A stretch of 64,000 nucleotides of DNA from Comamonadaceae bacterium. Lineage in GTDB: Bacteria > Pseudomonadota > Gammaproteobacteria > Burkholderiales > Burkholderiaceae_C. The position numbers and the translations under genes were made by a program. The stretch's first letter is position 1; each line of letters opens with the position of its first letter. Under the pieces are notes generated by a model that ran no database searches, was not told the DNA's origin, and saw only the letters and a program-made list of their open reading frames with translations. This document shows, in pieces, positions 31,968 to 34,893 of the stretch. The DNA is taken from NCBI GenBank assembly GCA_027490925.1, contig JAIXXF010000019.1:1-64000 (forward strand). Direction: 5' to 3'.

Positions 31968-32558
31968 TCAGCGGCGGTCGACCAAGGCGTGGGCGATGGT
32001 GCCCAGATCCACGTACTCCAGCTCGCTGCCTACCGGCACACCGCGGGCCAGGCGCGTGACGCGCAAGCCGCGGGCCTTCAGCGCTTCCTGTATCACGTGG
32101 GCGGTAGCCTCGCCTTCGGCGGTGAAATTGGTGGCCAAGATCACTTCCTGCACCTGCCCGTTGGTGACCCGGTGCAGCAATTCGTGTAGCCCGATATCGC
32201 GAGGACCCAGGCCGTCGAGCGGGCTGAGCCGCCCCATGAGCACGAAGTACAAACCTTTGTACGCCAGGGTGCGCTCAATGGCCGACTGGTCGGCGGGCGT
32301 CTCGATCACGCACAGCTTGGTGGGGTCACGGGTCGGGTCCAAGCAGGTGGGACAGACCACGGCCTCGGTGAAGGTGTGGCACTGGCTGCAATGCTGGACG
32401 TCGGCCACGGCCTGCTGCAACGCGCGCGCGAGCACCTGTGCGCCCTCGCGGTCGCGTTGGAGCAAGTGGAAGGCCATGCGCGAGGCCGACTTCTCCCCCA
32501 CGCCAGGCAGCTTGCGCAGCGCTTGGATCAGGGCCTGCAGGGCGCTGGAACCGGCCAA
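31968..32558 (-). CDS. recR: recombination mediator protein RecR
   Basis: A 196-residue protein of the RecFOR pathway that helps load RecA on gapped DNA. It has the N-terminal helix-hairpin-helix ([17 protein letters not shown]), the zinc finger [16 protein letters not shown] and a Toprim domain ([31 protein letters not shown]). It is the third gene of dnaX-ybaB-recR. Confidence 0.97.
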
Positions 32559-32568
32559 GGGGTGGGGC

Positions 32569-32901
32569 TCAGAATGGGAACTTCAGACCACCGGGCAGGC
32601 CAGGCATGCCCGCGGTGAGCTTGCCCATTTTTTCCTGCTCTGTGTCGCTGGCCTTGCGCACGGCGGCGTTGAAGGCGGCCGCGACGAGATCCTCCAGCAT
32701 GTCCTTGTCGTCGGTCAGCAGGCTGGGGTCGATGGCGACGCGCTTGACATCGTGTTTGCACGTCATGGTGACCTTGACCAAGCCCGCGCCGGACTCACCG
32801 GTGACCTCGATCAGCGCCAGCTCTTCCTGCGCTTTCTTGAGGTTGTCTTGCATGGCCTGGGCCTGCTTCATGAGGCCGGAGAGTTGTCCCTTGTTGAACA
32901 T
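32569..32901 (-). CDS. nucleoid-associated protein, YbaB/EbfC family
   Basis: A 110-residue protein: N-terminal [20 protein letters not shown], then [26 protein letters not shown], and a C-terminal LPGGLKFPF. These small dimers bind DNA and are almost always placed between dnaX and recR, as here. The gap to recR is 10 bases and to dnaX 39 bases. Confidence 0.97.
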
Positions 32902-32940: not shown

Positions 32941-34893
32941 TCAGGGCAGCGGTTTGATGCTGCCCGGGACGATGCGGCCACCGAAGTCGCGCAGCATCGC
33001 CTGCACGAAGGGGTCGTTCTCGATGGTCTCCACCGCCGCCTGCTGGCGTGCGGCCTGGGCAGCCTGGGTGCGCCGCGCCGGGGTGTCTTGCACCGGGCCG
33101 AGCACGGTGACGAGCTGCACCTCGTGGCCTGCCGCCTGCAATGCCGTCTGGAGCCGGTCGCAAAGCGCCGGTTGGTTCAATGACTCGCGCTCGATGCGCA
33201 AGGTCCACTCGGTGGCGCGCCTGTCTTGCAACTCGGCCTGCAGGGCCAGCTCGCGCACCATAGCGTTGACCGCGTCGGTGGCGACCAAGCCTTGAACCAC
33301 CTCGAACCAAAAGTCACCGTGCGGGCTCGGCTGGAAAGACAAGACGGTGCGCTGTTCGGTGCGGGCACTTGGCTCAGGTTGGACCCGCACCGGTATCGCT
33401 ACTATTTCAGTAGCAATACCACCAGATTCCGTGGGGGCCAAGGGCCGATTTCGCACCAAAAACGGTTCTGCCACCGCAGCGGTCCCATTTTCTGGGTCGG
33501 CTCCGGTCGCCACGGAGGACCTCCCCCCGGACGCAGGCGACGGTGACGCAGGGCGTGTGGGCGGTGCGGTGGGGGATTGTGCGGCGGCAATGGGTTCGGC
33601 GGCAACCGCTGCGGGGGCAACAGGTGCACGAGTGGCAGACACGGGGCTGAGCGGGTCCGCGGCCGCACGCTCCGGCTGTTCCGGGGGGGCGTGGTAGGGG
33701 ACGGGTTCAGGCCGCGTCAGTGTTTTTTTTTCAACCGGAGCGCTGGGCGCCGCGCGGGCGGACCCGTGGCTGGCCTGCGGCTTGAAAGCCAGCAGGCGCA
33801 ACAGCACCATGGTCAGCGCCGCGTACTCGTCCGGCGCGAGACCCAACTCCGTCAGACCGTGCAGACAGAGGCTGTACAGCAGCTGGGTTTCATCGGCAGG
33901 CAGCGCGACCGCGAGCCGGGCAATGTCCGCTGCATTGGGGTCGGTGTCTGCGCCGGTGTTGGGGCTGTGCGCATCGGACCCGCCCACCGCCTGCAGCACC
34001 GCCATGCGCTGCAACACCCGGGTCATTTCTTCCAATGTGGAGGCCGCGCTCAGACCGCTCAAGCGCAGGCCATCGCAGGTGTCCACCACGGTTTTGCCGT
34101 CGCTCTGGGCCAGCGCGTCGATGAGTGTGAACACATGGCCACTGTCCACGGTGCCCAGCATCTGACGCACACCGTCCTCGCGCAACGCGCCACTGCCAAA
34201 TGCGATGGCCTGGTCGGTCAAAGAGAGCGCGTCGCGCATGGAACCGCGGGCGGCACGGGCCAACAGGCGCAGGGCACCTGACTCGGCGGGAACCGACTCG
34301 GCCTGCAACACCGCGGTCAGGTGTTCCAGCACCGTTTCTGGCGCCATCGGACGCAAATTGAATTGCAGACACCGCGACAGCACGGTGGGCGGCACTTTCT
34401 GTGGGTCGGTGGTGGCGAGCACGAACTTGAGGTACTCGGGCGGCTCCTCCAGCGTCTTGAGCATCGCGTTGAACGCGGTGTTGGAGAGCATGTGCACTTC
34501 GTCGATCATGAAGACCTTGAAACGCCCTTGCACCGGTTTGTAGACGGCCTGCTCCAGCAGCGAGGAGATCTCGTCCACCCCGCGATTGGAAGCGGCGTCC
34601 AACTCGGTGTAGTCCACGAAACGGCCACTGTCGATGTCGGTGCACGCGCGGCACACGCCGCAGGGTTCGGCCGTGATGCCGCCCTGCCCGTCGGTCCCCT
34701 GGCAGTTCAGGGACTTGGCGAGGATGCGCGAGACCGTGGTTTTGCCCACGCCCCGGGTGCCAGTGAACAGGTAGGCGTGGTGCAAACGCTGCTGTGTGAG
34801 CGCGTTCGACAGCGCCTGCACCACATGGCCTTGCCCCACCATCTCGGCGAAGTTCCGAGGGCGGTATTTACGGGCCAGCACCAGGTAAGACAT
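32941..34893 (-). CDS. dnaX: DNA polymerase III subunit tau/gamma
   Basis: A 650-residue clamp-loader ATPase. The AAA+ part covers about residues 1-365 (GTRGVGKTTVSRILAKSL, the zinc cysteines in CGVCRACTDID, DEVHMLS). A proline/alanine-rich linker spans about 366-540, and the tau-specific C-terminus follows (FWFEVVQGLVATDAVN onward). Two oddities: an A9 run at 33731-33723 (codons 388-391) with stops close by in both other frames, suggesting a gamma-like short form; and a copy of the interspersed repeat in frame in the linker (33391-33468), which encodes AEPFLVRNRPLAPTES. The operon continues to ybaB and recR. Confidence 0.97.
   Translation of the reverse strand: MSYLVLARKYRPRNFAEMVGQGHVVQALSNALTQQRLHHAYLFTGTRGVGKTTVSRILAKSLNCQGTDGQGGITAEPCGVCRACTDIDSGRFVDYTELDAASNRGVDEISSLLEQAVYKPVQGRFKVFMIDEVHMLSNTAFNAMLKTLEEPPEYLKFVLATTDPQKVPPTVLSRCLQFNLRPMAPETVLEHLTAVLQAESVPAESGALRLLARAARGSMRDALSLTDQAIAFGSGALREDGVRQMLGTVDSGHVFTLIDALAQSDGKTVVDTCDGLRLSGLSAASTLEEMTRVLQRMAVLQAVGGSDAHSPNTGADTDPNAADIARLAVALPADETQLLYSLCLHGLTELGLAPDEYAALTMVLLRLLAFKPQASHGSARAAPSAPVEKKTLTRPEPVPYHAPPEQPERAAADPLSPVSATRAPVAPAAVAAEPIAAAQSPTAPPTRPASPSPASGGRSSVATGADPENGTAAVAEPFLVRNRPLAPTESGGIATEIVAIPVRVQPEPSARTEQRTVLSFQPSPHGDFWFEVVQGLVATDAVNAMVRELALQAELQDRRATEWTLRIERESLNQPALCDRLQTALQAAGHEVQLVTVLGPVQDTPARRTQAAQAARQQAAVETIENDPFVQAMLRDFGGRIVPGSIKPLP
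33391..33468 (-). repeat. interspersed repeat copy 3 (inside dnaX)
   Basis: Read on the minus strand: CCGTTTTTGG, then GAAATCGGCCCTTGG, CACGGAATCTGG and TTGCTACTGAAATAGTAGC. It shares AAATCGGCCCTT exactly with the copy at 56729 and AATCTG plus the GCTA-hairpin end with several copies. It is fully in frame with dnaX and encodes part of the variable linker. Confidence 0.75.
33707..33732 (-). promoter_or_regulatory. A9 slippery site in dnaX (candidate gamma-subunit frameshift)
   Basis: The minus-strand sequence GAAAAAAAAAC starts at codon 388. A -1 shift after codon 390 reads Asn-Thr-Asp-Ala-Ala then TGA at 33709-33707, giving a 395-residue product. A +1 shift reads His then TGA at 33719-33717, giving 391 residues. 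Escherichia coli dnaX uses an A-rich slippery heptamer for ribosomal frameshifting, and Thermus dnaX uses an A9 run for transcriptional slippage. Confidence 0.65.

Follow-up and report, generated by a model that had tools for sequence, protein, structure and literature searches.

We found that the dnaX gene in the window, as we call the whole 64,000-nucleotide stretch of Comamonadaceae DNA that was analyzed, carries an in-frame run of nine A's (A9) on its sense strand, and we consider it likely that this run is a programmed slip site where mainly RNA-polymerase slippage gives both tau and a gamma-like product. Judged from comparison of related genes, the site is real and maintained, and it probably functions in recoding: it is the conservation of the run, of its phase, and of the stops around it across relatives that sets A9 beyond chance. 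The gene and the features discussed below are the following:

32941..34893, minus strand: dnaX, DNA polymerase III subunit gamma/tau, a single open reading frame for a 650-aa tau
33787..34179, minus strand: collar domain III (residues 239-369; Pfam PF12169), ending ahead of A9 and retained in the predicted short product
33723..33731, minus strand: A9, predicted slip site, codons 388-391, sense strand GAA AAA AAA ACA
33717..33719, minus strand: TGA closing the +1 frame (8 or 11 A's in the mRNA), predicted product 391 or 392 aa
33707..33709, minus strand: TGA closing the -1 frame (mRNA with 10 A's or ribosomal shift by -1), predicted product 395 aa
32971..33315, minus strand: polymerase-binding domain V of tau (residues 527-641; Pfam PF12170), missing from the predicted short product

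The identity of the gene is supported by a profile search, in which TIGR02397 matched the 650-aa translation with an E value of 4.3e-119, and by an alignment with Escherichia coli tau (8gj0) that spans residues 1-649. Tau is encoded by one open reading frame running through A9, and the part beyond the run encodes domain V, for which PF12170 scored 35.3 bits (cut-off, 28.8). Downstream of dnaX and also on the minus strand are two open reading frames, at 32569-32901 and 31968-32558, which from their translations we take to be ybaB/ebfC-like and recR-like, respectively.

The run covers the codons E388 (GAA), K389 (AAA), K390 (AAA), and T391 (ACA), exactly where the preliminary description had placed it, and its bases 2-8 form an in-frame A_AAA_AAA heptamer. 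Translation of messages with 8, 9, 10, and 11 A's gave 391, 650, 395, and 392 aa, respectively, reproducing the two lengths predicted earlier for the +1 frame (391 aa) and the -1 frame (395 aa). As also anticipated, the shifted products end just past the collar, given that domain III stops at residue 369, and the predicted short forms retain domains I-III and lose domain V. The run had moreover been described as rare in DNA of this GC content, which by itself is weak evidence: 0.26 matches were expected in the 64-kb window, where we found one, and shuffling the window 100 times gave at least one A9 in 18 cases. The 2.76-Mb genome to which the window belongs contains five overlapping A9 matches, representing three runs of lengths 9, 11, and 9, and since 59 of 60 relatives had at least one match genome-wide, A9 as such is not rare. 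The other two runs of at least nine A/T in the window genome are at L001 1501-1509 and L002 1501-1511.

In the mechanism that we propose, RNA polymerase slipping on A9 would generate dnaX mRNAs with 8, 9, 10, 11, or more A's. Those with 9 (or 12) A's would be translated into full-length tau. Those with other counts would run into a stop within a few codons, whichever shifted frame they are in, and the resulting clamp-loader subunit of 391-395 aa would be gamma-like: it would keep collar domain III and the AAA+ domains but lack domain V, which binds the polymerase. In the window gene, the shifted products would end in EKKH (391 aa) and EKKNTDAA (395 aa). Some of the 395-aa product may also come from ribosomes shifting by -1 at A_AAA_AAA. 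We infer that slippage occurs in vivo, mainly during transcription, and that the clamp loader takes up the short protein.

For the comparison of related genes, dnaX sequences were drawn from 60 genomes including the window's own (58 of which gave a long match), the 80 loci matching best in a genome collection, extra family genomes, and nine genomes of the class sampled outside the family, one of them with a truncated dnaX. Among the family genomes, 149 had a dnaX match, and G094, G095, G130, G150, and G172 were left out for a partial match or a contig end. Eleven rows were removed before the final count: seven identical to others (L036, L149, L150, L160, L165, L166, and L183), two truncated (L089 and L261), and two with N in the linker (L114 and L195). 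The last two show assembly trouble, L114 having a scaffold gap with repeated flanks at the run (codons 380-454) and L195 an N within the run near codon 371. The resulting nonredundant set has 247 genes, including the window gene. The 80 collection loci are the most similar to the query and hence an uneven sample, and a more even one is provided by the 146 family loci, which come from whole genomes; in all sets, the rows share kinship and raw counts overstate their independence.

Conservation of the run in relatives had been named beforehand as a check, and we found exactly nine A's in phase in 152 of the 247 genes. The remaining genes comprised 88 with no run, 4 with the heptamer A_AAA_AAG, 2 with A10, and 1 with A8. 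Among the 80 collection loci, 78 had A9, one (L104) had A_AAA_AAG, and one (L089) was cut by a contig end, while the 146 family loci comprised 82 with A9, 58 with none, 3 with A_AAA_AAG, and 1 each with A10, A8, and an N in the run. Carriers of A9 with genus names include Acidovorax, Variovorax, Hydrogenophaga, Rhodoferax, Ramlibacter, Comamonas, Delftia, and Curvibacter. On a FastTree phylogeny of the 247 rows, built from the DnaX sequence preceding the run, 7 changes were needed to explain all states. The window gene fell in a clade of 157 rows (support 81) with 151 A9, 4 A_AAA_AAG, 1 A10, and 1 A8, and no gene in this clade was without a slip site. Nearest outside the clade are the run-less L226, L116, and L232, followed by a large run-less group. 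L224 has A9 and was placed outside the main clade, such that either A9 is older and was later lost or the row is misplaced; many forks are weakly supported in this tree as well as in a smaller tree of 36 rows.

The 58 family loci with neither an A8-A10 run nor A_AAA_AAG within codons 340-440, which include L026, L027, L029, L031, L033, L035, and L116-L120, imply that gamma, if made there, arises some other way. Two loci from other families of the order, L121 (codon 519) and L133 (codon 427), have an A9 or A10 of their own in a different place, with a close stop in one shifted frame, and these runs are possibly of independent origin.

Of the 152 A9 genes, 142 have close stops, within 12 codons, in both shifted frames; the close +1 stop is present in 150 (at the second codon in 128) and the close -1 stop in 144. 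Of the ten genes lacking one of them, two (L159 and L169) lack the +1 stop and eight the -1 stop. At matched post-collar positions of the 58 run-less family genes, a +1 stop was found at 12.7% and a -1 stop at 4.7%, and both at none of 1,160 positions, these being 20 overlapping, nonindependent positions per gene. Within the A9 genes themselves, both frames were closed at 5.7% of positions 25-65 codons downstream, and a first count with 100 genes had given 96 with both stops against 7.2% for the control. The stop solution, defined as stop position and codon, changed at least 27 times on the tree for the +1 frame and at least 62 times for the -1 frame, and TAA, TAG, and TGA are all in use. A +1 stop is useless to a -1 ribosomal shift but needed by a homopolymer slip, and its presence thus favors slippage on A9; by the same reasoning, the retention of stops in both shifted frames points to transcriptional slippage of the Thermus type more than to ribosomal frameshifting of the E. 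coli type. This both-frame logic was laid out for Thermus dnaX in passages of PMC1088944 and PMC5009743. Together, the kept run and the kept close stops lend support to the gamma-like short product predicted in the preliminary description.

Selecting rows by A9 forces AAA lysine codons by construction, and the informative observations are therefore two: the absence of any loss of the slip site in the 157-row clade and the codon choice at other lysine columns. At eight other conserved lysine columns of the A9 genes, AAA was found in 10-88 of the 152 rows, with 8-33 changes per column on the tree, and AAG was commoner than AAA at seven of the eight. The post-collar Lys-Lys, on the other hand, was encoded by AAA-AAA in all 153 A8-A10 rows having it (Lys-Lys was absent from the searched stretch in two more), and no A8-A10 run in the 157-row clade was interrupted by AAG; of the 88 run-less rows, just 4 have Lys-Lys there. 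If the run were kept solely to preserve Glu-Lys-Lys-Thr/Ser behind the collar, AAG would serve equally well and the stops in the two other frames would be left unexplained; the residues flanking the run do tend to be constant, with Glu ahead of it in 145 of 152 genes (Gln in 7) and usually Thr or Ser after it, but we consider this explanation very improbable. Still less probable is a phase-variable tract toggling dnaX through DNA slippage: homopolymers are generally known as the usual substrate of such switching, yet the length is nearly constant among the 247 genes, and in the one genus with A10 (g111) the longer run is fixed in 5 of 5 genomes, with both stops retained and tau in one open reading frame. 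A chance run or an assembly error, for which the recurrence of A9 in shuffled windows could be cited, is hardly conceivable given the same length and phase in 152 nonredundant genes from many separate assemblies.

The alternative deserving most attention is that A_AAA_AAA promotes -1 programmed ribosomal frameshifting as in E. coli, yielding the 395-aa gamma, and that the length of nine is incidental. The heptamer is in frame, the window gene has a -1-frame stop soon after the site (33707-33709), as the E. coli type has, and most A9 genes share such a stop. One gene, L206, has the sole in-phase A8, at codon 392; of its two shifted frames only the -1 frame closes early, and the gene may work by ribosomal shift. 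We nevertheless hold this explanation to be unlikely for the A9 genes. Seven A's would be enough for it, yet 152 of the 155 A8-A10 rows have exactly nine, and the +1 stop, for which it has no need, is closer and more constant than the -1 stop. In E. coli, A_AAA_AAA was reported to be far less shift-prone than A_AAA_AAG (in a passage of PMC5009743), and the latter heptamer is absent from the window gene. Upstream stimulators of the E. coli type were likewise scarce. A Shine-Dalgarno-like motif, defined as GGAG, GAGG, or AGGA in the 22 nt ending five bases before the run, was found in only 5 of 152 A9 genes; with a narrower upstream stretch the count was 1 of 100 A9 genes against about 7% at control positions, and the 26 nt before the window A9 contained none. 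Counting somewhat against transcriptional slippage, the 50 nt downstream of A9 folded a little more stably than control positions (a mean of -17.95 compared with -16.39 kcal/mol), a small difference. An Rfam search of 33300-34100 gave three matches up to an E value of 10, none of them a dnaX element. As a further point against ribosomal shifting in the A9 genes, relatives that do have A_AAA_AAG differ from them in having the upstream motif and a looser +1 stop.

These relatives belong to two genera, g115 and g30 (the latter with genomes of 2.1-2.6 Mb), in each of which 5 of 5 sampled genomes have A_AAA_AAG in frame and no A9; together with the Polaromonas metagenome-assembled genome L104, they provide 11 distinct A_AAA_AAG genes. 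In each of the 11, the -1 frame closes at either the second or the fourth codon; nine have a Shine-Dalgarno-like motif upstream, with a G-run in the remaining two. The +1 stop is at a median of 10 codons, compared with 2 in A9 genes, and lies within 12 codons in 6 of the 11, compared with 150 of 152. The 11 genes are related and represent one or two evolutionary events. On the tree, G116 of genus g115 pairs with the Polaromonas genome; the 247-row FastTree separates the A_AAA_AAG pairs, the 36-row tree keeps a single group acceptable (p-AU 0.454), and the upstream stretch common to these genes fits one origin.

Two candidate correlates of the heptamer were dropped. A downstream stem-loop was not taken as characteristic of the A_AAA_AAG genes, their folding energies over 45 nt ranging from -9.2 to -23.1 kcal/mol, and the slip type had no clean link to the tRNA-Lys(CUU) gene in 16 genomes. 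The pattern used for the latter, a degenerate one that would miss departing genes, matched 115 of 150 family genomes. Among the 16, it had no match in the window genome G000 (A9), G031, and G167 (A_AAA_AAG) and matched in the other 13, including G116 (A_AAA_AAG); the nonmatch in the window genome possibly reflects a loss, an assembly gap, or a pattern mismatch.

From these comparisons, one family seems to have swapped its mechanism while keeping the product. We lean toward a history in which RNA-polymerase slippage on A9 was the ancestral route to gamma in this group, from which one or two branches (Polaromonas and the small-genome genus) switched to ribosomal frameshifting, assembling a new Shine-Dalgarno cassette in the process. 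If true, the event moved recoding from transcription to translation with the output retained and is a natural experiment indicating that selection acts on having gamma and not on the route to it.

Transcriptional slippage in Thermus thermophilus dnaX was reportedly described by Larsen et al. in 2000. According to PMC1088944 and PMC5009743, it takes place on nine A's with close stops in both nonzero frames. Varied A counts in the mRNA and roughly equal amounts (about 1:1) of gamma and tau in the cell are further marks of the Thermus type. The window gene resembles this system in its nine sense-strand A's within one open tau frame, in the close stops of both other frames, and in that mRNAs whose A count departs from nine are predicted to yield gamma; it differs in belonging to a distant lineage and in having its slippage predicted from sequence, whereas the Thermus case has RNA and protein evidence. 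In E. coli, as outlined in parts of PMC5009743 and PMC3711429, dnaX uses -1 programmed ribosomal frameshifting at A_AAA_AAG with an upstream Shine-Dalgarno sequence and a downstream stem-loop. Here too one gene is predicted to give tau and a shorter gamma-like protein, and the 11 A_AAA_AAG genes of the family closely resemble the E. coli signal, but the window gene has A9 in place of A_AAA_AAG, no Shine-Dalgarno-like motif in the searched stretch, and a conserved +1 stop. The Chlorobium type, described in a section of PMC3711429, also has a poly-A slip site in dnaX, consisting of ten A's, but there the DNA has two open reading frames and the long form requires a shift, unlike in the window gene (650 aa) and the A10 genus g111, where tau is a single open reading frame. 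In Caulobacter, a passage of PMC5009743 states, gamma arises by proteolysis of tau; one gene again gives a short DnaX, as predicted here, but the route is posttranslational and, unlike in the A9 genes, no slip site is needed. By analogy, such proteolysis could apply to the run-less members of the family.

The Figure 1 legend of PMC3711429 lists Neisseria among the genera with an E. coli-type dnaX signal, so that predicting such a shift for a betaproteobacterial dnaX is not new in itself. We found no description of dnaX recoding in Comamonadaceae or Polaromonas in the open-licence literature searched, and among the matches listed for dnaX transcriptional realignment, no open-licence paper concerned this group by its title; nor did any of the matches listed in broader searches concern it. 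The A9 genes would accordingly extend a known device to a further lineage, most likely transcriptional slippage, at a dnaX site that we did not find described for this group.

Not all bacteria make a short DnaX, and those that do use different routes, with ribosomal shift, transcriptional slip, and proteolysis all represented. PMC13220808 reports that Bacillus subtilis makes none and that loss of gamma in E. coli impairs both survival of UV and Pol IV mutagenesis. Open reading frame structure alone reads as tau only, so that the short protein is easily missed, and A9 and A_AAA_AAG in close relatives offer matched genes for comparing transcriptional with ribosomal recoding. The retention of a slip site throughout a clade of mostly GC-rich genomes suggests that many more bacteria are under selection to make a short DnaX.
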